From a virus: a stretch of DNA of 53,362 nucleotides. Positions 32 to 14,851 of this stretch are shown here, piece after piece. The stretch is taken from IMG/VR virus record IMGVR_UViG_3300044707_001188, positions 1 to 53,362 of that record; one strand, written 5' to 3'. Under the pieces are notes generated by a model that made no database searches, had not been told where the DNA came from, and saw only the letters and a program-made list of their open reading frames with translations. The position numbers and the translations under genes were made by a program. Position 1 is the first letter of the stretch. Each line of letters opens with the position of its first letter.

Positions 32-3000
32 TCAGTTTGACAGATTCAAAGCTTGCAACCTCCCTGTCACCCCCCGATTCAACCCCTCCATCACCCTCGC
101 GATCTCCGCGTCGATCCCCCTCACCCGTTCCTGATACCCCTCCTCCTGCCGCAGCTGCACCTCCCGCCGCATCCTGCGCAGCCGGCTCACCGCCGCCTCG
201 GCCTTGTTGCCCTCGGCCACCATGTCCGCCAGCGGCTCACCGCGCCGGTAGGCCTCGACGTCCTCTCGGTTCTTCGCCCTGCCCTGCAGTTCGTTTTCGA
301 TCTGGTTCAGGCGCTTGACGTTCTCGTAGAACGCCTCCGACTGGCCTGAGATGCCGCGCGTGTTGCCGTACAGGCGCCCCAGCAGCGGGATCTTGTGCGG
401 CGGCAGTTCGTCGCCCGTGTAGGGTGCTGACACGGTCTGCGCAAGCTTGCCGATCTCCCGGCCGATGCCGCCGGTCAACTGGCCGATGACATAGTCGATC
501 TGGTCGGGCGTGGGGCTCCACATGCCGGGCTGGTACTTCGTGCCGCCGGTGATCCAGTTGGTGAGCTCGCTCGCGGCCTTGGCCCAGGGGGTGGCGGAGT
601 CCTTGGCCATCGCGGTGCCGGGCTGCGGGTCTAGCGGGTTCATGGTCTCGCGGTAGATGGGCCGGCCGGTCCAGTCCCGGTTCTGCCAGAGCGCCACAGC
701 CGGGTCGGCCACGGTGGGCGTGACCATCTGCGAGAAGGTCTGCGAGCCGCCGAGCGGGTTGAAGGCGTCCAGCATCACCTGCAGCAGTCGGCCGATCTGC
801 CGGCCGGCGGTCTTGTCCGGCCCGCCGAGCATGAACTCGACTGCCAGGCGCCCGACGTTGGGCAGGAAGTGGAAGCCCAGCGGCAGCGGGATGGACAGGT
901 AGTCCTCGCGGCCCAGCGGCACGATCAGGCTGCGCTCCTTGACGAACTCGGGAATCTTGTCCCAGTGATCGTCGCCGTCGTCGTCGCCACCCATCACCGC
1001 CATGCCGATGAGTGCGTTGACGGCGCCGAGCAGCACGCCGCCGAGCATGATCTTGCGCCCCATCGGCCCGCGCAGCGTCTCCCACATCCTGACCGTGCCC
1101 TGGATCGCCGCGTTGAAGAAGGCGTAGAAGGCGCCGATCTCGCGGGTCTGGCGGCCCTTGCGGTTGAAGTTGACGGTGAGGTTCTTGGCCAGGCTCGCCG
1201 CGCGCTCGGTGCTCATGCCCTGGTCGAGCGCGACCTTGAAGGCCGACACCCGCACGGCGTTCTCCATCGCCTCGTTGTAGTCGCTCAGCCAGTCGAGGAC
1301 GTAGTGGACGGTCTTGCCCGCTGCGCCCCGGTCCAGGCGGCCGAGTTCCTTCTCCAACTCGCGGGTGCGGTCCTCGATGTTGGCGTACAGGTCACGGTAG
1401 CCGGTGGAGCCTCCGGCTTCCTGCAACTGTTTCCACAGATCGATCCACTGCCGGTTGGCGGGGTTGGCGGCTTGCTTGCCGCGCTCCTGGCGGTAGATGG
1501 CACGCAGCGCCGGAAAGACGCCAGAGGCGACCTCGCGCTCGCGCCCGGCCAGCGCCGTGGTGCTGAGGTTCAGCAGCCCGGACTGGGCGTCCCGGGCAAA
1601 GTTGATGACGCCGAAGACCGGGTTGTACTGGGTGTTGACGCTGGCGAACCAGCGCGTGCCCTTGGCCACCAGCGTGACGGCGGCGTGCAGGTCGCCGATG
1701 TCCAGGTTCTTCAGCGAGTGCGCCAGCCGCAGCGCCTGGGGGTTGCGCTCGTTGAAGGTGATCGCCACGTCCTGCCCGGCGATGCGCAGCATCAGGACGT
1801 AGGGCAGGTTGCGGTAGTTCGGATCGGCCACCTTTCTGACGGTGCGCGTGAAGGGGTCGACCACCTTGATGACGGGCAACTCGTCCACCCGCCACAGGTC
1901 CGGGTCGGGGTTCTGCGCGGCCATGACGTAGAGCTTCTTCAGCACCAGGTCTTTCTCGCCCCTGGTGAGCGCGGCCTCGCGCTGCATGGCGATGTGGCCG
2001 AGGATATGGGTCACGCGCTCGTTGCTGCCCACGCGCTGACGCGCCGCTGGCCCCTTGACGTTGAAGCCCATCCCAGTGGGGTGCGCCACCGAGTCCGGGT
2101 GCGCCTCGTCCCGGTGCAGCGGCACGTAGTAGCGGTAGGCCCGGCGCCAGGCATCCAGCACCGAGCGCTCCATCAGACCGTAGTGCTCCAGCAGCTCGAG
2201 CGTGCGCGCGTTGACCGCATCGACCCTGGCCGCCAGCGCGTCCATGTCGGCCAGCCGCGGCGGCGTGAGCGCGGCGATCACGGCAGCCGCCTCGGCATCG
2301 GACATCCCCGACAGCGACAACCTCTCCTCTTCCGTGCCCCGGAAGGCCTGCGCACGGCGCCAGACCGACTGCGTCTCGCGCGCGGCGTCCAACGCCTCGT
2401 TCAGCGCCCGGGTCGAGGTGCCCCGAGCCACCGCCGACTGCAGCCGCAGCTCCAGCGCCTTGACATCGGCATTGGCCTGGGCGCGCCGAGCGTCGAGCTC
2501 GACCTGGCTGGGGTTGCGCCGGGCCATCTCGGCATTGGCCTCGGCGGCGTGCCGGGCGTGGAGGTAGCGCTCGAAGTCCTCCATCGTCACCCCGCGCTCA
2601 CGCATCTCGGCCAGCAGCGGACGCAACTCGTCGTCCAGGAACACCTGCGTGCGCCGCGCCAGGCGCTTGTGGAACAGCTCCTCGCCGAGGTAGGCGTCGT
2701 TCAGATCCGAGATCGCCCCGCCGAGTGCCTGGATGCGGGCGCGGATGCGCTTGAGGTCGACGAACTTGTCCTGGAACTCGTAGATCAACTTGTCCAGCGC
2801 CTCGGGGCTCGTAAGGGCAATGACACGCTGCTTGAGCGCCTGCCAGCGGCTGCGCTGGGCGGGGCCGGGCTGAGGCGGCGGGTTCGGGCCGGCGGCGTTG
2901 GGCTGCGAAGGCGGCGGCGGGGCGAGGTTCTCCAGCAGCACGGGGCGCCCGTCTGACGCACGGCGCACCGGTGCCACCTTGCTCGCGTTCGCGCGCTCGC

Positions 3001-6000
3001 GCTGGATGCGCGCCAGCTGCCGGGCCCGCAAACCGTAGACGGCCGCGAAGGCGTCCTGCGCGGCGTCCAGCACCACGCTGTCGGGCAAGTTCGGCTCCAT
3101 GCCCCCGTGGCGCCAGGCGTAATCGTCAACCATCCCGCGGATGAAGTCCGCCTGCTCCGGCGGCATCATGCCACCGTAGGGGCTGCGTGCGTCCGTCATC
3201 TCGCGCCAGACGTTGGCCAGGTCGCGCACGATGTCGGCCTCGCTGTCGCCGGCCTCCCCGTCCTGCAGCTTGTGCAGCAGCAGCGGGTTCAGCAGGTCGG
3301 CGCGGGTCATCTGGTCTTCCTCCAGCTCGGCGAAGCTGGACTCCAGCGCGTCCATCAGGGTCTCGAGCCGGGCGTCCAGGCGCTCGGCCATGCTCGCGCT
3401 GCGCGGTCCGGCCTCGTAGGCTTTTTCGACACGGGGAATGAGTTCGCGGATCTCAGCCTCGATCTGGGCCGGGGTCATGCGGTTGACGTCGGGCTCGGCG
3501 TCGGCACCGCGCCGGGCGGGTGCGGGGTTCTCCAGAACCGGGGACGGACCCGCATCAGGCGCAGATGCAGCGCGCTTGACCTCCTCCAGTTCTGCGCCCA
3601 GCCGCAGCTCATTGGTCAGAAATTTCTCGTTGCTCGCGACCAAGCCTGGCGCGCGCCCTTGCTGGACGTCCCGCCGCTCCTGTTCCTGCGACCAGGCCAT
3701 GAGGCCCTCGACCAGCACGGTCTTGCTCAACTCACCAATGACCGACGCATTGACCAACAGCGGCTCGCCGTCGCTGCCAATGCCGACCACGTCACCCGTC
3801 ACCAAGTAAGCACCCTTGGCGTGGCGGAAGCCCAGATAGTCGATGTAGTTGCTGATGCCGCCGCCAAGGTTGGCCGGATGGTCCTGCGGCAGGTCTTCAA
3901 ATGGTTGGTAGTAACCCAAGGCGTCCGGACTCTCCACGAGCTGCACCACCGACAAGCCCATCTCGCGCCGCCCATCGACCCAGTTCTTTGAGCGGCGGCC
4001 GCGCACGTCGCCCTCGATGTCTCGCGCAAAACGCAGGTACACCGGCCGGCCTCCCACACCCTCGCGCAACACGCGCTGCAGCCGCGCCATCGTCGTGATG
4101 TCGCTGGCCTTGCGGTTGTCCAGGATGCCCGACACCCCCTCGAACAACATCTGCCTGGACTGGAAGCTGCCGTCGTTGTCGGCGCCGACGACGTACTCCA
4201 TTGCCCGCAGCACCGCCGCATCGGCACGCGCACCGAGCAGTCCCTTGATGCGCTCGACCATCTCGCGCATCCACACCATGATCCGGCGCCACATCGCATC
4301 CGACGCGGCGTAGCGCCGGTGCAGCAGACGGGTGGCGTTGACCGCCCAGAACTCGCTGGGGTTGACCAGTTGGTAGTGGGGGTCGTACTTCAGCACCCCC
4401 TTGGCGAAGGCGCTCTTCAGGGCGTCGCGGGCACTGCGGTCGCCGGCCATGGCGGGCAGGATGTGGTCGAGCGCCTGGCGCTGCTCGGAGGTCGCGTTCT
4501 TGTACCCCGCCGCCAGTGCCTTGGCCCACTCCGCCCGGATGCGCCCTTGCATCGGCGCGGGCATCATGCGCTCGGCGTGGTGCAGGATTTCGTGCACTGC
4601 CGTGCCGCGCAGGGCATCGCCCTTGAACAGGCGCATGACGCGGGTGGTGGGGTTGTAGTCCCCCGATGGCGTGTCCTCGCCCGGGGATTCGATCGAGATG
4701 CCCAGGTCAGCCGCCAGCGCCGGGTTGCGGTCCAGCGCCCACAGTGCGAACGCCACGTCGTCCGGGTCCAGGTCACCGCGCCGGCGGGCCTGCAGCAGAC
4801 GCTCGCGCACCAGATCGGCGCCGCGCTTCCGGCTGCGCCCGAAGACCCGCTTGTGGCGCTTGGCCTGCGCCGCCGCGTCCAGCTCGGCGGTCAGCATCCG
4901 CACCGCCAGGATGTACTGCTCGTCGTCGATCTCGCCCTTGGCCAGGCGCTCGGCCAGCTTGGACAAGCGGCGCGCGGCCTGGATCCTCGGCACCTCAGCC
5001 TCGCCGTCGTCGGGCGCGAAGTCCTCCTCCAGCGCCTTCCTGGCGCTGCGCCGCGTCACGCCGGCAGCCTCATGGCGCCCGGGGTTCATCGGCGCGAGGT
5101 TGGACAGGGTTCCCCCGACCGACCCGGAGGGCTGCGTTCCACGCTCGGCCATCGAGGACCGCGTGACCGGGTCGATCACGTCAAGCAGCCGCAGGTCAAG
5201 TCTGGCCAGGGCGTTGGCCATGTTCTGCGCCGCGCGTTCGGCACGCGCTACTTCCACCTTGCTGCCGCCCTGCACCGGGATCGACAGCAAATAGGCGGCA
5301 GAGCCCGAGAAGGCTCCGGAGTTCAGCAGGCGATCCAGCCGACCCTCCTTGGTCAGCGACAGCATCTCTTCCTGGATCATCGGCACCCAGGCCGTGACGC
5401 GGTGGCTGTGGCTGACGAACACGATCCCCGGCTGGCCTCCGGCGAGGTTCTGCACCACGTCCTTGGCCCTGCTGGGCGTGTCGATGACCACATTGGCACT
5501 GTCCACACGCCGGATCAGGCGGTCGACCACTGGGATGCGCGCCACCGTCTTCCCCGGGCGGACCTTCCCACTGACGAAGTTGGCGCCGTCGCCCTCCACC
5601 GCGCGCCAGTCGCCACCATTGGCCACCGCAGCCATGCCGGTCCAGCGGATCGACGTGTCGCGGAAGACCGATGCCACCGCCTGGTTCAGATACTCGTCGG
5701 CCCGCGACAACTCGGCACTGCCGCTCGGATGGTTGTGCACGCCCCAGGCCGTGGCCGCGCCCTTGATGCGCAGCGCCTCTGCCAGGATGGTGGTGGGGTA
5801 CACCGCCGTCTGCGCGATGGCGCCCTTGAAGGAGCCCACCACCGCCAGCGGCTTGCCCGCCATGTTGGTGATGAGCACGTCCATGTGCTCGACGGCGTAA
5901 TCGCCGATGGCCTGCAGCGCGTCCACCGCGTCCTGCCAGGTTTTCACGCTTGCGACCGGCAGGTCGCGCACGTTCACTTGGACGAGTTGGTCGTTGACTT

Positions 6001-9000
6001 GGTAGACGCCGGGCAGCGTCGGGTTGGACCGCACCGATAGGGTGGCGGTGGGGAGTACGTCCCCAGCGGAGGTGGCTTGCCCGGCTCGGGAACGTAGATC
6101 ACCTCCTCGGGCACGGGGTAGCGCCCGTCCGGCAACAGGCTGCAGGTCCTGCTGGGTTTCTGGGAAGAGGTCATAGCTGAGATCGTAATTCGAGACCGGA
6201 TCGTTGACGTTGTAGACACCGCTCTCCTCTCGCGCAAGGTTTGCGTCGCCGTCCGCCTTCCCAGTCTTCAATGGCGGCAACCCCAGCACCTCGCGCGCGA
6301 CGTCGGGGTGCGAGACAGGGATCAGCTTGCCGTCGGCCCGAACCTGCAGCAGATGCTCGACCGCGCGCCGTAGCGTGGCCTCGTTCAGGTTGCGCACCGA
6401 CATCACATCGCCGCGCTTGTAGAAGTCCTGCCTGAGCGCGTCGATCAGCCTCTGGTCCAGGTAATAGGTGCCGCCCTCGCGCTTGGCCGCCGCAACAGAG
6501 ATGCTGTAGGTGGGCGCACCCTCCCCGTGCGAACGCAGGATGCGCAGCGTCCCGGCCGCGTTCCTCACCGTCGCCCCACCGCCGGCCCGCTCGAAGAACT
6601 GCATCAGCTTGACCGGCGCCGTGAAGACCACGGCATCCGCAGCCGCCTGCTGCTTGACCTTCTCGAAGTCGTAGCCCCGGCGCATCAGCACGCCCTGCTG
6701 CACGCGCCCGTCGTCGGTGGTGTAGCTGACGATCTGCCCGGGGAACTTCGCGAACCCGGCCAGCAGGTTGCCGGTGACCATCCAGCGCTGCTCGCGCCGC
6801 ACGTTGCCACTGCCGCCGCTGTACAGGTCGAACAGCTCCGGGATGCTGTAGTAGCGGGCGGTGTCCGTCTTGGGGTCCAGGGCCGCCACCGGCTCGACCT
6901 GCTTGCGCAAGGTGACGCTGCGCCCGAGTTGGCTCACGCTCAGCGTGAGCGACCGCGCATCCCCGTTGGCCAGCGCCAGCGTGATCTTCCACGACGAGCC
7001 CGCCGCCGGGTTCTTGGTCGTGCCGGTATTCGCAATCGAGGTGATGATCCCGTAGGTGGGCACCTGCATCGAGTCGAGCACCGTCACCTGGTCGCCGACC
7101 CCGTAGTTGCGCAGCGTCTCCTCGACCAGGTTCTTCTGCATCCCGACCGTGTCGACCTGCCGCTGGATCTTCAGCGGGTCGGTGTCGGCGGCCTCCAGCT
7201 TCGCGCGCAGCGCCTGCACATAGATCGCGGTACGGGCGCTCAGGTCCCGGATCATGTCGACGCGCATCTTCAGCGCAGTCTGTCCGCCCAGGCTCTGCGC
7301 GATGGCCGCCTCGACCTCGGCGCTGGACATGGGCTTGACCGTGCGCGCCACGTCCACCTTCTCCATGTGCGCCGGCTCGGCGAACCGGGAGCCGGCATCG
7401 CCTTCGCGCTGTGCCGTCACCTGCTCGCTCGACAGCGTCTTCGCACCCAGGTTCAGCGCCTTGGCCTCCAGCTTGTTCGTGCCCATCGCGTCCTCGCGCG
7501 CGATCAGATCGTTGTAGCGCTGGGTCAGGTCGGCATAGATCTCCTCCTGCTGCTTGATGGGCAGGATGGGGATGTAGCCGGTGAGCTTGCGGATCAGCTC
7601 GTCGTCGGCTTCCTCGACCTTGTCGGGCACCTCCAGCCGGTCCTGCCCTCCGAGTTCGGCGTGGACATCGGGGTTGTCCATCAGGAACTCGGCTGCGACC
7701 TGGCCGCCGTAGTCGTTCATGAAGTCGACCACGCCCTCGGCCGTCACCGCCGACTTACGGCTGGCGGTGGTGTTGGCGTTCAGCGAGGCCATCTTCTTCA
7801 TCAGCACCGCCGCTGGCCGCATCTCGGCCGGGATGTCGGCCATGGCCTGCGTGTAGTCGGGCGTGATCACCTGCCCGGTGCGGTGCACGCGGCCGAGCAT
7901 CTGCATGTGGGTGTCGATGTTGCGCTCGGCCTGCACGATGATCATGCGGCGCTTGCGCTGGTCCTTGACCTTGGCCGATGCGTGCAGCGACAGGCCCGTC
8001 GAGCCCGACTGGTTCAGGATCAGCGCGTCGACCTCGCCGCCGTTGAAGCCCCGAATGGCCCGCAGGCGCTGGCGGATGTTGGCCGTGCGGTTGGCCAGCA
8101 CCGGCGAGGGGCCGGCGTAGTTCACCGTGATGTTGCGCCCGGTGATCTCGTCGGTCTTGAAGCCCGCCTCGCGCAGGCGGTTGTGCATGAAGTCGATGGG
8201 CGAGATGGGCGCGGCCCCGAAGCCCGCGTTGCCGATGAATTCGGCCGTGCGGTTGAACATCTTGACGAGCGACTCGCCGAGTTGCTCATCGGTCAGTCGG
8301 GACTGCTCCGGCGGCGCGCCCCCAGGGCGCTTGATCGTGATGACGCGCTGCTTTTCCAGGTAGCGCAGGTACAGGTCCCGGAAGCTCAGCGCCACCGGCT
8401 CGCCCGGGCGAAGGTCCATCTCCTTGGCGTAGTCCGCCAGGAACGAGCCCATCGTATTGGCCACGGTGAGCACCACCTTCTCGCCCGCCTTCAGCCGCTC
8501 GATGGCGAAGTCCACCGAGTCCTGCGCCTTCAGCGCAAGAAGCATCTGGTCGATCAGGTTGTGCATGATCGCGCCGAAGTTCGCGCCCTGCACCGTCGCC
8601 TTCTCGGTGCCCTTCTCGGTGATGACGGCGCCTTCCTTGTCCAGTTCTTTCTTGATGGCCTCGACCGCCGCTTCCTTGGCGCGCGAGAAGGCGAGCACCA
8701 TGCGCATGGCGGTGGCCATGTTCTCGGCCGTGGCCTTGTCGACCGTGGTCGCCCGGGTCTCGTATCCCACGCCTGCGAAGGTGCGCTCGCGCCGGATGTA
8801 CTGGCCGTCCTCGGAGAGCATCGTGGCCACGATCTGCTGCAGCGGCACGCCCCCGGTCTGGATAGCCGGCGCGAGCTGGGTGGGCTTCTCCACAGCGAGC
8901 ATCATGTTCGTGCTGCTGTACAAGTCCATCACGTCGGGGCGCTTGGCGTAGGTGGCCGAGCTGAAGAAGCTGCCCGCCGAGTTGCGCACCAGCACGCGGG

Positions 9001-12000
9001 CAAAGCCGGCGCGGCCGAGCTTGTCCTCGCCCTGCTTCAGGGCCTCGCGCTGCTCCTTCGTGCGCGCCTGCGTCGTGGAGGTACCGCCGGCGTTGTGGCT
9101 TTCGTCGAAGATGACGTAGCCGCCGTCAGCGAAAGCCTGCAGGAATCGCATCCGGGCCGTGGTCTTGCCCGCTACCGTCTGGATCTGGCTGTAGGTCGTG
9201 AAGATGACCTTGAAGCGCCCCAGGCTGCCCTCGCCGACCATGCCGTCCATCAGCTTGTTCAGCTCCGGCCCACTGGCTGGCGGGCGCAGCACGAGTTCGA
9301 GTTCGACCCGATCGCCGTTGCGCTCGCGCTGCAGCGTGTAGTCGATCGACTCCTTGCTGTTGGTCATCAGGATGCCCGGGCGCTGCGTGGACAGCCCCAG
9401 TTCCTCGGCCATGCCGATGTCGTCGAGGTCGCGGATCATGTCCGCGTACAGGTTGGGCTTCTCGGTGACGAAGATCGGCACCTTGCCGCTGCGCAGCGCG
9501 TAGCGGATCATCCCGGCCACCACGCGGCCCTTGCCGATGCCGGTCTGGTCCCCGATGATGAAGCCGCGCCCCTGCTCGGCGTTGTAGATCGCCAGCGCCA
9601 GCGCGTCGACCTGCTCGGCCGAGAAGTAGCCGGCGAGTTCAAGCGGGTCGTACTCGAGCTTCTGGGCGACGAAGGCGTCGAGATCGCCCACCGCCGCCTG
9701 CACGCGCTCCAGCGACTTCTGCACCGAATCGCGCATCGCGCGCGGCACCAGCGTGCCCACTGACGGCGCGCTGGAACCCGGCGTGTAGGCCACCTGTCCG
9801 GCGGTCTCCTGCTCCTGGCCGCGGCGGTCGCTCAGTCCAGGCTTGACGAGCTGGTCTCGGCCAGGGCCATCTCCAGCCACGCCTCCAGATCGGTTTCCTC
9901 CAGCGCCTCCCGGACGGCCTCCATCCGCACCGTCGGGCGAGCGGGCACCTTGGCCGGGAACGGATTGATCCGACTGTTCATCTGAAGAGACAGCACCGTC
10001 TGCAGATGCAGGTTGTGGCTGAACAGGCTGCCGCCCGCCTCGTATGCCCTCACGACTCCCATCACGCCCATCGCCGACAGCGCCCGATTGGCCATCCGCA
10101 GGCCTTGCGGATGTTGATCCACCATTCGGTTGATCCGGTCCTCCACGGCGTCCATCCACGCCCACTGCGTCAGTTCGCCCGGGGGCACCATCACCCCGCA
10201 CAGACCCGCCTGGACGTTCGGGGGACACCACGGCACCAGAACCCGACGCTGCTCCTGGGGCGTTGACGGCGGCGTTTGCATCCAGCTTCTCCTTCAGGGC
10301 CGGCCACGAGTCGAAGCGCACCGGCAGTTGGGCGGCGGGCAAGGGTCGAGTGGCCTTGCCACCACGGCCCGCGATCACGATCACGTCCACGGGGTAGCCG
10401 GCGCCCTGGCGCGCGTACAGATCGCCGTCGACCGTGAAGTGGTCGACGACCTGGTAGTCGTTGTACAGGCGGAAGTAGAACTCCCGCTTGGCTTTGGCAC
10501 GGTAGCCGTCACGGATCTCGTCCTCGGCGCGGGCATCCACCCCGCCGACGATCAGCACGGCGCGGCCGTCGTCCTTGAGTGATTCGAGGGCCTTCATCGC
10601 GATGGCGTGGTCGACCTCCCGCGTCGCGAAGAACGGCGCGGCGGCCCACACGGTAGGCTCGCCCTTGTCATCGCGCACCACCCCGAAAGGCGGGTTCATC
10701 ACCGCCACATCCAGGGACTTCGGCGGGGCCAGCGCAGAAGTGGCCGCGTCGTTGCGCTGCACCTCGAAGCCCAGGGCGCGAGCGTTATCGGCGCGCTCGG
10801 CGTTCAGCTCGTTGACGACGGCATCCTTTGGGGCGACCTCGATCAGCAGCATCGTGTTGCCGGCCGTGGGCTCGCCCACCTTGTCGCCGGGCTTGATGCC
10901 CGCCAGGCGCGAGGCCAGGAAGGCCAGCGGCACCGGCGTCGAGTAGGCCTGCTCGCGCACGCTGGTGGACGAGCGCATGCCCAGCACCGGCTGCAGGCCG
11001 TACAGGTTGACCAGGCGGTCGTAGATGACACCATCGGTGCGCCCCTGGCGCCGTGCAGCGGCCACGATCTCGCGCCCGGCCAGCACGACGGCAACTTCCA
11101 CCGTCTCGTCGGCCCGCTTGGCAGCCTGTGTGCCGGGCTCCACGGGCTGACCGGTCAGCTCAGCGATGAACTTGCGGGCCTCGACGATGGTCTTGAAGCC
11201 CTCGCCGCCGAGTAAGCGGTCGGCGAGGGCCTGGGCCGTGGCGCGGCGGCCGGAGGCGGTGGTGAGGGATGGGCGTTCGGCAGCGTTCTGGGTGGTTTGC
11301 AGTTCTGGAGCGGTGTTGTCGGTTTGCGCGTTCCGCTTGTTTTGCGCGTCTTGCGCGATTGCCGCGTCCACGTCGATGTCCTCGACGTCGGCTGCGCGGT
11401 CCATGTCCGCTTTGAACGACGCTGCGCGAGGGTCGTTGCGCACCGCCAAGTACCACGACACCAGGTAGGGTTTGACGGCCTCACCCAGGTCGTCGACCAT
11501 CGCCCGCGCATAGGCAGCAAACCGGCGCGCACCGCGCTCGATGTGATACCCCGCCAGCGTGATGCCATCCAGCAGCGTCTCGGGGTCGATGCCCGACTGC
11601 AGGCGACCGAGCTTCTTGCGTAGGCGCTCGCGCGCCGCCTGGGCCGCATCCTCGGTGAAGATGGTGTTCGGCTTGGCAGCCGCAGTGGCGTCAGACGGTG
11701 CGGCGGGGGTGGAGGAATCGACCGGCGCCCCAGGCGTCTGCCCGGGCGCGCCAGCCGACGGGGTCAGTACCCCGGTTTCGGGGGCTTCTTGCCCTTGCCC
11801 TTCTTCATCATTGGTCGCTCCTTGGCGGGTTGCGGGCGCGCTTGCCGGGGCGCTCGATGCCGGGGTTTGGCGCCTCTGAGCGGCCGGGGGCTTACCGCCA
11901 AGTCGGTAGAAGCCCACCGCCGTGTCGACGATGTCCTGTGCGGTGCGGAAGTCCAGATCGGCTTGGCGCTGCTCGTCGCTCTGCATCAGCAGACGGTGCA

Positions 12001-14851
12001 GGGCCTGGCCTTGGGGCGTGATGCTGCTGTTGTCAGCCAGACCACGGTGCCGCAGGGCGTCCCGCAGGGCTGGGTTCTTGACGCCTTCCAGACCCCGATC
12101 CATCGCATCGGTGAGCCCGCCGACAACTTCATCCGGTCCGAACCGCAGTTGTCCTGGGGTCGGCTCGGGACGGGTCGCAGCGGGTGGAATCGCCGCAGGC
12201 GCTACCCCGCCAGTAGCCGTTTGTGCGCCGGCACCGGCGTTGGCCAGTGGGCCTGCGCCACCTGCAGCAGTTGGTGGCCTGCCCGTGTTGTCGATGGGTC
12301 CTTGTCCTGGCTGCCCTGGCGCACCAGCAGCGCCCCGAGGATCGCCGCTGCCATCGGACTGTCCTGCGCCCTGGGGCTGGGCGGGTGGGGTGTTGGCTTG
12401 TCCATCCGGGGTGATCTCCTTCGTCAACTCCGTGAGCACGTCCGACGGCGCAGGCGTGTCGCCGAACAGGCCTCCGCCCTGACCCGCCTGGCTGACGAGC
12501 CGGGTGTATTCCTCCAGCAGGCTGACCACGCGGTCGCGGCCCAGCGGGCGGGTGAGGAACTCGCCGCCATAGAACAGGCGCAGCGCGCTCAGCATCAGCG
12601 GATCCGGCGTCTGGCCGGTGGTCAGATCCACCTGTCGCGACAGGTCGTGCAGGCTGCGCCGGTCCTGACGAGCGCGGCGGATCATCCGCACGGCGTCCAC
12701 CACCGCGGGGGTGATGTCGGCCGAGGGCTCGACCGTGCCCGCGCGCACCGAGTCCCGCAGGTTGGCCCAAGCCCCTGCCGACAGCTTCAGCGCCTCGCCG
12801 ATGGTCTTGATGTCGGTGTCGGTGGACTCGAACATCTCCGAGATCAAGTCGGGGTCGCCGTAGGCGGCTTGCGCCATTGCGGCCTGGATGCGCGACCGCC
12901 CAGTGGGCGACAGGAAGCCCTCGCCGGTCATCAGGTTGGCAATGTCCTGCCCGGCGCCGTGCAACTTCCCGACGAAGGCGCGTACGAAGTCGCGGTTGTC
13001 CCGGGAGGCGACATCGCCGCCCTGCCACATCGCCAGAACGCTGGAATCGATGAGCCGGGCGTCCTGGCGCGCCAGCTCGGCCGGCGACATCCCCAGCCCC
13101 TGCCCTTGCGACAGCGCCGCCATGTTGGCGACGTTGCTCGCATCGGCATACAGCCGCACGAGCACCGGGTTCGCCGTCGAGCGGATCACGGCAGGGTCCA
13201 CCCCGTGCTGTGGCGCATCACGCTCGAGTTCGGCCTGATAGTTCGCTGCGGTCCCCGCCTCGTAGGCGCGGCGCAGGCCGGCCGTGCGCCCGTTGTTCAA
13301 GGCCTTGAGGGTGCCTGGAGCGGCATTGCCGAAGGCCGGGTTCACCGACCCGTCGGCAAAGTTGCTGGGCTGCAGAGCGTTCGCATCGACCACCGCGTAG
13401 CGGAAGGGCACACGCCGACCGTCGGCCATCACGGCCACGTCCTCGCGGCCCAGGGCCGATGGGGGAACGAGCGAGGTGTCGTCCCCCACCGCGAACACCA
13501 TCGGCGCACCGGCGTCGGGAGAGCGACTGGGACCCAGGCGCAGATAGTCGGGGTTGGCCGCGATCGACTGCATCTGCGCGATGGAGGCTGCGCGCGTGCG
13601 GTCGCGGTTCTGGGCGTCGAGTTCGGTGTCGGCGGGCGCCGAAGTGCCGGGCCCTGTGGGCGTCACACCCAAGGGCAGGATGCTCGCCTCATCCGACGGC
13701 ACCCCGAGCTGCTGCGAGAGACGCGCGCGCAGCGCCTGCTCCTGCGGCGTCAGCGCCCGGGTCTGAGCCAGAACGTCCAGTTCGGCCAAGCGGACCAGCG
13801 GATCGGGTGCCGGGGTCCGTGGCGTTGATGCGGGCGTCGGCGTGGAAGGCGGCGTTGGCGAGGAAGGCTGCACAGGCGCAGGCTGACCCAGGCCGGCATT
13901 CGCATAGTCCAGGGCCCCACCGACAGCCCCGCCCGGTGCAGCCAACGCCCCTTCGAGCACCGCCGAGCCCGCCACACCCCGATAGGCCGGCGTCGGGAAT
14001 CCCGCACGGTCGGTGGCGACGTTGGCGGCGTACTGCTCCTGCCCGCCTTGGGCCGCCTCCAGCGGCACCTCGCGCGCCACGCCTGCGAGCACCGAGCCCG
14101 TAAACGGCACAACACCTCGCTGGGCCGTCGATGCGGCCACGCTCTGCGCAGCCTCACGGCCGAGCACACGCGCAATGGCGCCTTCGACACCGGTGACAGA
14201 GGCTGCGCCGCCAAGCGCAGCGCCGCCGGCGATCAGCCCGGGGTTCTCAGCGTAGCTCTGGGCCTGGGTGGCGATGGAACGCGCATCGGCCTCAGAACGG
14301 CCTTCCTGACGCGCCCGCTCGTAGACCTGGTCGTAGATCGCCGACTTGACGACCCCCGTCCCCTGCACTGCGCCTACGCCGCCGAGCACCCCGAGACGGG
14401 CGCCCCAGGAAGCTTCACGCACGCCTGGGAGGAGTGAGGCCGCGATAACGGGCGCGCCGGTGGCCACCGCGCCGAGTCCCATGCGCACCGGGGCGATGCC
14501 GGCCGCGCGCAGGGCTTGCATGGCCTGCTCGCCAACACCCTTGTCCTCGGCGTCGCGCATGATTCGCGCAACTTCTTCGTCCTCGTACTGGGCGCGAAGG
14601 CTCTGCAGGCCCTTGACGGCCTGGTCGGCCACCCGCAGGCCACCGGAGACCGCGTTGTCCGCGCCGGCCACGTCGGTGATGAAGCGCAGGCCCTTGATCC
14701 CCCCGCTGACCACTTCGAGGCCCAGGTCCCCGGCGCTGCGCAGCACACCCGGGTTGGCGGACTCCGGGATGACCGGCTTGATCCCGAGTTCGTCGAAGAG
14801 GTTTCGCGCCATGAGCAAGCCGCCAGCCGCCGAGTTGAGACCGGCGTCCAA
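32..14851 (-). CDS. Giant polyvalent virion protein (ParB/DdrB-like, N6-MTase, SBNO helicase, JAMM, zincin, LPD38-like)
   Basis: A single uninterrupted frame of 4939 codons. Domains in order, positions approximate: DdrB-like ParB fold with NNGRTAGLRRAYEAG (470-640); N6-adenine methyltransferase with SAM loop GEPTAGN (about 1324) and NPPF (1386); strawberry-notch type SF2 helicase with GIGKGR (about 1771), DESH (about 1916) and QMLGRVHRTGQ (about 2316); RadC-like JAMM motif HNHPSG (about 3039); zincin HEILHH (about 3420); LPD38-like tail with a hydrophobic segment near 4600. Gly/Pro/Ala/Gln-rich linkers separate the blocks. Polyvalent proteins and P1 DarB/DdrB are known to be packaged and injected to protect phage DNA; this role is inferred here from domains and from position at the end of the virion genes. 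The start is uncertain: TTG at 14851, or ATG at 14812 giving MARNLFDELG; neither has a strong ribosome site. LPD38 and ParB assignments are from memory of family sequence. Confidence 0.9.
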   Translation of the reverse strand: MDAGLNSAAGGLLMARNLFDELGIKPVIPESANPGVLRSAGDLGLEVVSGGIKGLRFITDVAGADNAVSGGLRVADQAVKGLQSLRAQYEDEEVARIMRDAEDKGVGEQAMQALRAAGIAPVRMGLGAVATGAPVIAASLLPGVREASWGARLGVLGGVGAVQGTGVVKSAIYDQVYERARQEGRSEADARSIATQAQSYAENPGLIAGGAALGGAASVTGVEGAIARVLGREAAQSVAASTAQRGVVPFTGSVLAGVAREVPLEAAQGGQEQYAANVATDRAGFPTPAYRGVAGSAVLEGALAAPGGAVGGALDYANAGLGQPAPVQPSSPTPPSTPTPASTPRTPAPDPLVRLAELDVLAQTRALTPQEQALRARLSQQLGVPSDEASILPLGVTPTGPGTSAPADTELDAQNRDRTRAASIAQMQSIAANPDYLRLGPSRSPDAGAPMVFAVGDDTSLVPPSALGREDVAVMADGRRVPFRYAVVDANALQPSNFADGSVNPAFGNAAPGTLKALNNGRTAGLRRAYEAGTAANYQAELERDAPQHGVDPAVIRSTANPVLVRLYADASNVANMAALSQGQGLGMSPAELARQDARLIDSSVLAMWQGGDVASRDNRDFVRAFVGKLHGAGQDIANLMTGEGFLSPTGRSRIQAAMAQAAYGDPDLISEMFESTDTDIKTIGEALKLSAGAWANLRDSVRAGTVEPSADITPAVVDAVRMIRRARQDRRSLHDLSRQVDLTTGQTPDPLMLSALRLFYGGEFLTRPLGRDRVVSLLEEYTRLVSQAGQGGGLFGDTPAPSDVLTELTKEITPDGQANTPPAQPQGAGQSDGSGDPRGAAGAPGQPGQGPIDNTGRPPTAAGGAGPLANAGAGAQTATGGVAPAAIPPAATRPEPTPGQLRFGPDEVVGGLTDAMDRGLEGVKNPALRDALRHRGLADNSSITPQGQALHRLLMQSDEQRQADLDFRTAQDIVDTAVGFYRLGGKPPAAQRRQTPASSAPASAPATRQGATNDEEGQGQEAPETGVLTPSAGAPGQTPGAPVDSSTPAAPSDATAAAKPNTIFTEDAAQAARERLRKKLGRLQSGIDPETLLDGITLAGYHIERGARRFAAYARAMVDDLGEAVKPYLVSWYLAVRNDPRAASFKADMDRAADVEDIDVDAAIAQDAQNKRNAQTDNTAPELQTTQNAAERPSLTTASGRRATAQALADRLLGGEGFKTIVEARKFIAELTGQPVEPGTQAAKRADETVEVAVVLAGREIVAAARRQGRTDGVIYDRLVNLYGLQPVLGMRSSTSVREQAYSTPVPLAFLASRLAGIKPGDKVGEPTAGNTMLLIEVAPKDAVVNELNAERADNARALGFEVQRNDAATSALAPPKSLDVAVMNPPFGVVRDDKGEPTVWAAAPFFATREVDHAIAMKALESLKDDGRAVLIVGGVDARAEDEIRDGYRAKAKREFYFRLYNDYQVVDHFTVDGDLYARQGAGYPVDVIVIAGRGGKATRPLPAAQLPVRFDSWPALKEKLDANAAVNAPGAASGSGAVVSPERPGGSVRGDGAPGRTDAVGVDGRRGGPDQPNGGSTSARPADGQSGAVGDGRDGSREGIRGGRQPVQPQPASADGAVSSDEQSDQSVPGQGARSPDGADGGRPGGAGGNRSGGVAGDGPGRDQLVKPGLSDRRGQEQETAGQVAYTPGSSAPSVGTLVPRAMRDSVQKSLERVQAAVGDLDAFVAQKLEYDPLELAGYFSAEQVDALALAIYNAEQGRGFIIGDQTGIGKGRVVAGMIRYALRSGKVPIFVTEKPNLYADMIRDLDDIGMAEELGLSTQRPGILMTNSKESIDYTLQRERNGDRVELELVLRPPASGPELNKLMDGMVGEGSLGRFKVIFTTYSQIQTVAGKTTARMRFLQAFADGGYVIFDESHNAGGTSTTQARTKEQREALKQGEDKLGRAGFARVLVRNSAGSFFSSATYAKRPDVMDLYSSTNMMLAVEKPTQLAPAIQTGGVPLQQIVATMLSEDGQYIRRERTFAGVGYETRATTVDKATAENMATAMRMVLAFSRAKEAAVEAIKKELDKEGAVITEKGTEKATVQGANFGAIMHNLIDQMLLALKAQDSVDFAIERLKAGEKVVLTVANTMGSFLADYAKEMDLRPGEPVALSFRDLYLRYLEKQRVITIKRPGGAPPEQSRLTDEQLGESLVKMFNRTAEFIGNAGFGAAPISPIDFMHNRLREAGFKTDEITGRNITVNYAGPSPVLANRTANIRQRLRAIRGFNGGEVDALILNQSGSTGLSLHASAKVKDQRKRRMIIVQAERNIDTHMQMLGRVHRTGQVITPDYTQAMADIPAEMRPAAVLMKKMASLNANTTASRKSAVTAEGVVDFMNDYGGQVAAEFLMDNPDVHAELGGQDRLEVPDKVEEADDELIRKLTGYIPILPIKQQEEIYADLTQRYNDLIAREDAMGTNKLEAKALNLGAKTLSSEQVTAQREGDAGSRFAEPAHMEKVDVARTVKPMSSAEVEAAIAQSLGGQTALKMRVDMIRDLSARTAIYVQALRAKLEAADTDPLKIQRQVDTVGMQKNLVEETLRNYGVGDQVTVLDSMQVPTYGIITSIANTGTTKNPAAGSSWKITLALANGDARSLTLSVSQLGRSVTLRKQVEPVAALDPKTDTARYYSIPELFDLYSGGSGNVRREQRWMVTGNLLAGFAKFPGQIVSYTTDDGRVQQGVLMRRGYDFEKVKQQAAADAVVFTAPVKLMQFFERAGGGATVRNAAGTLRILRSHGEGAPTYSISVAAAKREGGTYYLDQRLIDALRQDFYKRGDVMSVRNLNEATLRRAVEHLLQVRADGKLIPVSHPDVAREVLGLPPLKTGKADGDANLAREESGVYNVNDPVSNYDLSYDLFPETQQDLQPVAGRALPRARGGDLRSRAGQATSAGDVLPTATLSVRSNPTLPGVYQVNDQLVQVNVRDLPVASVKTWQDAVDALQAIGDYAVEHMDVLITNMAGKPLAVVGSFKGAIAQTAVYPTTILAEALRIKGAATAWGVHNHPSGSAELSRADEYLNQAVASVFRDTSIRWTGMAAVANGGDWRAVEGDGANFVSGKVRPGKTVARIPVVDRLIRRVDSANVVIDTPSRAKDVVQNLAGGQPGIVFVSHSHRVTAWVPMIQEEMLSLTKEGRLDRLLNSGAFSGSAAYLLSIPVQGGSKVEVARAERAAQNMANALARLDLRLLDVIDPVTRSSMAERGTQPSGSVGGTLSNLAPMNPGRHEAAGVTRRSARKALEEDFAPDDGEAEVPRIQAARRLSKLAERLAKGEIDDEQYILAVRMLTAELDAAAQAKRHKRVFGRSRKRGADLVRERLLQARRRGDLDPDDVAFALWALDRNPALAADLGISIESPGEDTPSGDYNPTTRVMRLFKGDALRGTAVHEILHHAERMMPAPMQGRIRAEWAKALAAGYKNATSEQRQALDHILPAMAGDRSARDALKSAFAKGVLKYDPHYQLVNPSEFWAVNATRLLHRRYAASDAMWRRIMVWMREMVERIKGLLGARADAAVLRAMEYVVGADNDGSFQSRQMLFEGVSGILDNRKASDITTMARLQRVLREGVGGRPVYLRFARDIEGDVRGRRSKNWVDGRREMGLSVVQLVESPDALGYYQPFEDLPQDHPANLGGGISNYIDYLGFRHAKGAYLVTGDVVGIGSDGEPLLVNASVIGELSKTVLVEGLMAWSQEQERRDVQQGRAPGLVASNEKFLTNELRLGAELEEVKRAASAPDAGPSPVLENPAPARRGADAEPDVNRMTPAQIEAEIRELIPRVEKAYEAGPRSASMAERLDARLETLMDALESSFAELEEDQMTRADLLNPLLLHKLQDGEAGDSEADIVRDLANVWREMTDARSPYGGMMPPEQADFIRGMVDDYAWRHGGMEPNLPDSVVLDAAQDAFAAVYGLRARQLARIQRERANASKVAPVRRASDGRPVLLENLAPPPPSQPNAAGPNPPPQPGPAQRSRWQALKQRVIALTSPEALDKLIYEFQDKFVDLKRIRARIQALGGAISDLNDAYLGEELFHKRLARRTQVFLDDELRPLLAEMRERGVTMEDFERYLHARHAAEANAEMARRNPSQVELDARRAQANADVKALELRLQSAVARGTSTRALNEALDAARETQSVWRRAQAFRGTEEERLSLSGMSDAEAAAVIAALTPPRLADMDALAARVDAVNARTLELLEHYGLMERSVLDAWRRAYRYYVPLHRDEAHPDSVAHPTGMGFNVKGPAARQRVGSNERVTHILGHIAMQREAALTRGEKDLVLKKLYVMAAQNPDPDLWRVDELPVIKVVDPFTRTVRKVADPNYRNLPYVLMLRIAGQDVAITFNERNPQALRLAHSLKNLDIGDLHAAVTLVAKGTRWFASVNTQYNPVFGVINFARDAQSGLLNLSTTALAGREREVASGVFPALRAIYRQERGKQAANPANRQWIDLWKQLQEAGGSTGYRDLYANIEDRTRELEKELGRLDRGAAGKTVHYVLDWLSDYNEAMENAVRVSAFKVALDQGMSTERAASLAKNLTVNFNRKGRQTREIGAFYAFFNAAIQGTVRMWETLRGPMGRKIMLGGVLLGAVNALIGMAVMGGDDDGDDHWDKIPEFVKERSLIVPLGREDYLSIPLPLGFHFLPNVGRLAVEFMLGGPDKTAGRQIGRLLQVMLDAFNPLGGSQTFSQMVTPTVADPAVALWQNRDWTGRPIYRETMNPLDPQPGTAMAKDSATPWAKAASELTNWITGGTKYQPGMWSPTPDQIDYVIGQLTGGIGREIGKLAQTVSAPYTGDELPPHKIPLLGRLYGNTRGISGQSEAFYENVKRLNQIENELQGRAKNREDVEAYRRGEPLADMVAEGNKAEAAVSRLRRMRREVQLRQEEGYQERVRGIDAEIARVMEGLNRGVTGRLQALNLSN
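9832..10281 (-). CDS. Candidate overprinted gene nested in the MTase-helicase linker of the giant gene
   Basis: 149 codons in a different frame from the giant gene, overlapping its linker at residues about 1524-1673. AAGGAG stands 7 nt upstream of the ATG. In two stretches counted by hand (20 and 42 codons) about 90% of third positions are G or C, against 50-55% when the same DNA is read in the giant frame. The peptide has a normal mixture of residues, including MEAVREALEETDLEAWLEM and MANRALSAMGV, whereas the giant frame reads as Gly/Arg/Asp low-complexity sequence. The C-terminal third looks helical and acidic. I recognise no family. It could be a regulator or partner of the MTase-helicase, or the relic of a separate gene that once stood between two genes later fused. 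There is no experimental sign of expression. Confidence 0.6.
   Translation of the reverse strand: MQTPPSTPQEQRRVLVPWCPPNVQAGLCGVMVPPGELTQWAWMDAVEDRINRMVDQHPQGLRMANRALSAMGVMGVVRAYEAGGSLFSHNLHLQTVLSLQMNSRINPFPAKVPARPTVRMEAVREALEETDLEAWLEMALAETSSSSLD
12202..12405 (-). CDS. Possible second nested small ORF in another linker of the giant gene
   Basis: 67 codons in the same alternative frame as the 149-codon nested ORF, lying in a Pro/Gly/Gln-rich linker (giant residues about 816-884). AAGGAG stands 10 nt upstream of the ATG. By hand count about 84% of third positions are G or C, against about 54% in the giant frame. The peptide is Pro-, Ala- and Gln-rich and resembles no family I know. The bias is weaker evidence here, because Gly/Ala/Pro codons automatically give GC-rich third positions in a shifted frame, and the AAGGAG also encodes Lys-Glu in the giant frame. 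Could be chance. Confidence 0.25.
   Translation of the reverse strand: MDKPTPHPPSPRAQDSPMAAAILGALLVRQGSQDKDPSTTRAGHQLLQVAQAHWPTPVPAHKRLLAG

Follow-up and report, generated by a model that had tools for sequence, protein, structure and literature searches.

We have identified a small gene that lies wholly inside a giant viral gene, on the same strand and in another reading frame. In our judgement it is about 85% probable that positions 10281 to 9832 (minus strand) are a functional protein-coding gene, overprinted on the linker between the methyltransferase (MTase) and helicase domains of a DarB-like polyvalent protein, and that genes of the same family occur in many phages and plasmids. This reading rests on sequence comparison, without expression data. 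A second, different nested gene was observed in cultured phages, where it overlaps DarB-like giant genes at a linker other than this one.

Results

The giant host gene

The window analysed here is a complete IMG/VR virus record of 53,362 bases. It encodes podovirus-type structural proteins (portal, internal virion protein, endolysin and Rz-like spanin), as well as a primase and a helicase. The giant host gene occupies positions 32 to 14851 on the minus strand and encodes a DarB-like polyvalent protein of 4939 amino acids, assigned from its open reading frame (ORF) and from Pfam and PHROG matches, the PHROG match to DarB-like proteins falling on a neighbouring segment of the giant protein. The gene meets the criteria for a DarB-like MTase-helicase in that an NPPF MTase is fused to a Strawberry-notch SF2 helicase. 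The C-terminal part of the adenine-N6 MTase domain, with its NPPF motif, was located at 10280 to 10900 by translation and alignment, and the Strawberry-notch SF2 translocase (AAA_34 and Helicase_C_4) at 7478 to 9622 by Pfam and tblastn, with the helicase region alignable by tblastn from about 9805. Extra polyvalent domains of the same polypeptide are ddrB-ParB (13151 to 13618; PF18763), RadC (5645 to 5944; PF04002) and LPD38, a large polyvalent protein associated domain (380 to 973; PF18857), all encoded on the minus strand like the MTase and translocase. The linker between the MTase and the translocase is rich in Gly, Ala, Asp, Pro, Ser and Arg.

Frame and composition of the nested ORF

The nested ORF (149 codons and a stop) starts with an ATG at 10281, ends at 9832 and is read on the minus strand in the +1 frame relative to the giant gene, inside this linker. 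An earlier note on this DNA had pointed to a 149-codon ORF in another frame with AAGGAG 7 nt from its ATG, and both are present: the Shine-Dalgarno (SD) motif lies at 10289 to 10294 (minus strand), with a 7-nt spacer. In the giant frame its bases fall within the codons for Leu-Lys-Glu-Lys-Leu, and SD and ATG together sit within the last codons of the MTase domain. The nested ATG begins inside an Asp codon of the giant frame (GAT|G), in the window as in Picosynechococcus PCC 7002, so a change of ATG to ACG would be silent in that frame (GAT to GAC, both Asp). A TGA in the nested frame at 10294 to 10296 (minus strand), 15 nt 5' of the ATG, argues against entry by frameshifting from upstream.

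GC content at codon positions 1, 2 and 3 is 0.69, 0.47 and 0.83 in the nested frame and 0.71, 0.48 and 0.87 in the giant gene as a whole; when the bases of the nested ORF are read in the giant frame, the values are 0.84, 0.69 and 0.47. This signature changes frame at both ends of the nested ORF. The earlier estimates of third-position GC were right in direction but not in size, as the nested frame has 83% rather than about 90% and the giant frame 47% rather than 50 to 55%. In a log-likelihood test with a position-specific base model, the +1 frame was preferred by 126 bits across the nested ORF, and all other long sense-frame ORFs of the giant gene scored negative. When the giant protein was held fixed and synonymous codons were redrawn or permuted, the +1 frame remained open in 9 to 19% of trials. 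Openness of the nested frame alone, in a single GC-rich genome, is weak evidence and is not significant.

A second, weaker dip in giant-frame composition was observed at 12032 to 12511 of the window (residues 781 to 940 of the giant protein), where the +1 frame is favoured by at most 40 bits and no long frame is open. It may mark a low-complexity linker or a nested gene that has decayed.

Relatives and extent of the family

Relatives were gathered via the MTase-helicase region and not via the nested protein. A search with the MTase region gave one relative, at 52% identity, and a search with an MTase-helicase alignment gave 41 viral and 26 cellular contigs. Most relatives have a +1-frame ORF of about 80 to 160 codons in the same linker, which it occupies almost entirely in the core family. 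The roughly 50 relatives with such an ORF are phages, prophages and plasmids of several bacterial phyla, including Bacteroides phage BS-TP4 and plasmids of Picosynechococcus, Chroococcidiopsis, Leptolyngbya and Thalassospira. On plasmid pAQ6 of Picosynechococcus PCC 7002 (NC_010480) the nested ORF lies at L073:3605-4108. The nested gene was unannotated in every annotated record inspected.

The tBLASTn search with the 149-residue peptide suggested by the earlier note came back empty: used alone, in tblastn or as a pattern, the window's nested protein had no matches in phages or viral contigs, because its sequence diverges too fast. A hidden Markov model (HMM) built from 26 nested proteins recovered relatives that had been held out (L039 at 1.5e-20, L072 at 6e-14, L057 at 3e-9 and L015 at 2e-8), and cyanobacterial and proteobacterial profiles built independently matched each other with an E value of 1e-10. 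The window protein is homologous to the nested proteins of many relatives; profile links to the Bacteroidales group (7e-4) and to a short group (2e-4) are weaker. Two further sets (L035, L065, L042 and L055; L023 and L024) are positional equivalents without homology to the core family detectable by profile comparison.

When a cyanobacterial nested protein was searched by tblastn in 72,556 plasmids, all matches lay within strawberry-notch genes. No stand-alone homologue was found by tblastn or profile in plasmids, in the fetched loci, or in records and genomes that carry the MTase-helicase dyad without the nested gene. Among 274 sampled genomes of a single class, only the known locus and two weak matches in ORFs of about 420 amino acids came up. 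Most nested products have a pI of 4.1 to 5.0; that of the window is 5.4, and L025 and L056 have values of 6.8 and 10.0.

Start signals

An SD-like match of at least 4 nt precedes 43 of 51 nested starts, compared with 23% of background +1 ATGs; for matches of at least 5 nt the figures are 24 of 51 and 6%. These counts are inflated, as some nested starts were chosen partly by SD strength. Bacteroidales hosts make little use of SD, and the weak or absent match at the nested starts of that group is therefore expected. A stop in the nested frame lies within 30 nt upstream of the ATG in 37 of 51 loci, in several of them immediately before it. Start, ribosome-binding site and frame are thus conserved among relatives, with the SD usual rather than universal. 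The combination of SD and upstream stops points to internal initiation and not to frameshifting, although no expression data bear on this. Relatives with stops in the nested frame, or without AAGGAG and ATG, in a linker that stays conserved would have refuted the nested gene according to the earlier note. The opposite was seen: the nested frame is open with an ATG and usually an SD, and it is the giant frame of the linker that drifts neutrally.

Selection in the two frames

Each nucleotide change was classed by what it does in the one frame and in the other, following the approach of OLGenie (PMC7531306) but using a simple script of our own with a Jukes-Cantor correction per class, no transition/transversion correction and a bootstrap over codons. 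Pooled over seven related pairs, the linker gave a dNN/dNS of 0.33 for the nested frame (95% interval 0.27-0.41) and a dNN/dSN of 1.00 for the giant frame (0.82-1.21). For the MTase and helicase regions on either side, again in these seven pairs, the values were 0.11 in the giant frame and 0.91 and 0.80 in the +1 frame. An earlier version of the estimate, made without flanks, had given 0.36 for the nested and 1.03 for the giant frame. Comparison of the window with L004 and L006, pairs near saturation, gave 0.54 for the nested frame with intervals below 1. As estimated from these alignments, the nested frame is under purifying selection and the giant frame of the linker is neutral, while the flanks are reversed. 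A comparison of dN/dS in both frames was one of the checks proposed in the earlier note, and its inference that the nested frame is the constrained one holds.

Predicted fold and database searches

AlphaFold2 modelled the window's nested protein with a pLDDT of 91.5 and a pTM of 0.82, and a Bacteroidales nested protein, from its own six-sequence alignment, with values of 90.9 and 0.83. Both models have the same order of elements, namely short strands, a long helix, helices, a strand and two helices. Fold searches gave no match in PDB for either model (best E 0.45 and 1.8), in BFVD for the window model (best E 0.71) or in VIA for either model (best Z 2.0 and 2.6). These null searches establish neither a new fold nor absence elsewhere. 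No match in Pfam, PHROG, NCBIfam or PADLOC names the family; a PHROG match to phrog_13572 was weak (E 0.009).

Distribution and origin

On a tree of the MTase and helicase, which has no inferred root and a long outgroup branch, the nested gene is scattered across the main clade. It is missing from a group of gamma- and betaproteobacterial plasmids and an Acinetobacter phage (L071, L075-L078, L089-L091), from a Flectobacillus set with separate genes, from L032, L037 and L062, and from the outgroup (L069, L093, L094). Linkers without the nested gene are short or have the ordinary giant-frame signature, and are not G/R-rich. The simplest story suggested by this distribution is one early gain followed by several losses.

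The MTase and the Strawberry-notch helicase are separate, overlapping genes in L060, L061 and L067 (Flectobacillus and a Cellulophaga-labelled assembly), with no small gene between them. Hydrococcus rivularis (L054) was rejected as a further split arrangement, as it holds a decayed dyad with frameshifts and a deletion; the C-terminal half of its nested protein persists in its own frame. Whether the nested gene arose by de novo overprinting or was trapped in a fusion is unsettled. The sequences would favour overprinting, because the outgroup genes are already fused and yet lack the nested ORF.

A second nested family

A different +1-frame nested gene was observed in the Bcep22-like DarB giants of cultured phages, where it lies at another linker, between a conserved LPD36-like segment and the MTase. 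Members were located in Atu_ph08 (L098:9236-9631), Burkholderia phage BcepIL02 (L099:9269-9679), Skulduggery (L100:9266-9715), Itty13 (L101:9818-10198) and PEp14 (L102:9974-10294). Klebsiella phage LASTA is another carrier of this second family. Versions with an HWKE motif form one homologous family, found by tblastn in 21 phage records and nearly always inside an annotated giant gene. Pairs from this family gave 0.28 (0.19-0.41) for the nested and 0.92 for the giant frame, which indicates purifying selection in the nested frame.

Two records deserve mention. Three large antisense ORFs are annotated in Pseudomonas phage Itty13 (NC_070969.1), where a DarB-like giant gene is open for 4112 codons on the opposite strand and appears to have been missed by annotation. 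The giant gene of Sinorhizobium phage PBC5 (L103, AF448724) is split in the record; its orf33 crosses over from the giant frame to that of the second nested family, whose sequence thus stands in the C-terminus of phrog_938.

Overprinting appears to recur at the linkers of DarB-like giant genes. That these linkers were colonised independently at least twice by small, folded, conserved proteins acting with the host enzyme module is an idea we hold only tentatively.

Discussion

The earlier note had left two possibilities, a real nested gene and the remnant of a once separate gene, caught up when its MTase and helicase neighbours fused. The former stands. A functionless relic could draw on the few relatives in which the two enzymes are still encoded separately, but these have no small gene in between, fused outgroup genes lack the ORF, and the predicted folds are confident. 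A dead relic is excluded by the purifying selection on the nested frame in the pooled pairs (dNN/dNS 0.33), and we give this explanation almost no weight. Even less can be said for an artefact of composition, in which the +1 frame would merely happen to be open because GC-rich DNA encodes a linker rich in Gly and Arg. The window alone would allow it, given the openness seen in randomised trials, but chance does not supply homologous nested proteins with conserved starts, frame-specific selection and folding, and the linkers of relatives without the ORF keep the giant-frame signature and are not G/R-rich. Programmed frameshifting, by which the nested frame would be appended to the C-terminus of a truncated MTase, is very improbable. 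The annotated ORF of PBC5 that crosses between frames, albeit in the second family, speaks for it, though an error in the record explains that ORF equally well; the stops close upstream of most nested starts leave almost no room for entry, and SD and ATG are conserved.

We therefore return to an internally initiated nested gene, whose function has not been shown. Ribosomes are inferred to initiate at the nested ATG, mostly via its own SD, on the mRNA of the giant protein; the two proteins would then be made together, the small one probably in excess. In the giant frame the linker is probably a mere flexible tether with little sequence constraint, which would leave its bases free to encode a second protein. 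The folded, mostly acidic product may bind the MTase-translocase module beside it and regulate or chaperone it, for example by keeping the module off DNA until packaging or transfer. In related phages, DarB-like proteins form part of the virion (JC1, PMC9144972), so a factor that restrains the enzyme before packaging would be reasonable. This partnership is conceivable but falls short of an even bet; it is prompted by strict co-location with the dyad, co-synthesis, small size and usual acidity, and only the co-location actually supports it. In several lineages the dyad does without the nested gene, so the gene is not essential to it. The same lineages would suit a real nested protein that merely shares the locus and works independently of the dyad, such as an anti-defence or host-takeover factor acting after entry. 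Faster evolution than in the flanking enzymes (0.33 against 0.11) and mostly acidic products also fit a host-facing factor. Such an effector would be expected to move alone, however, and the lack of any stand-alone copy in plasmids, fetched loci and dyad-bearing records without the nested gene leads us to consider it unlikely, though far from dismissed.

No earlier description of either nested gene was found in the open-access literature searched, subscription papers being outside its scope. The host gene recalls the DarB-like methylase-SWI2/SNF2 dyads of polyvalent proteins described by Iyer et al. in 2017 (PMC5512222). That paper does not mention overlap, and the records inspected carry no annotated nested gene. 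Both cases combine an adenine MTase with an SF2 translocase, which in the window belongs to the Strawberry-notch type, in a multi-domain giant protein that also contains ddrB-ParB, RadC and LPD38.

Ocr and ArdA are small acidic antirestriction proteins of mobile elements. The nested product is likewise small, mostly acidic and carried on mobile elements with antirestriction functions, but searches by sequence and by fold gave no match, and acidity is not shared by all members. In phages, Rz1 is embedded within Rz. Among viruses, tombusvirus p19 within p22 is an overprinted gene with its own fold (PMC11044054). Like these, the gene described here is a same-strand second gene entirely within another and has a protein fold of its own. 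It differs from them in two respects: in the host frame it overlaps only a neutral linker, and its family extends over phages and plasmids from several phyla, within an enzyme gene of nearly 5000 codons.

A broad gene family has been missed by gene finders since it lies inside another gene, which exposes an annotation blind spot, for phages and plasmids alike, in giant polyvalent genes. One stretch of DNA here serves as a neutral tether when read in one frame and encodes a folded protein when read in the other, a clean natural example that makes the birth and upkeep of overprinted genes testable, and the second family makes overprinting testable in cultured phages. If the product does regulate the methylase-translocase, it would be a missing component of antirestriction on many mobile elements.
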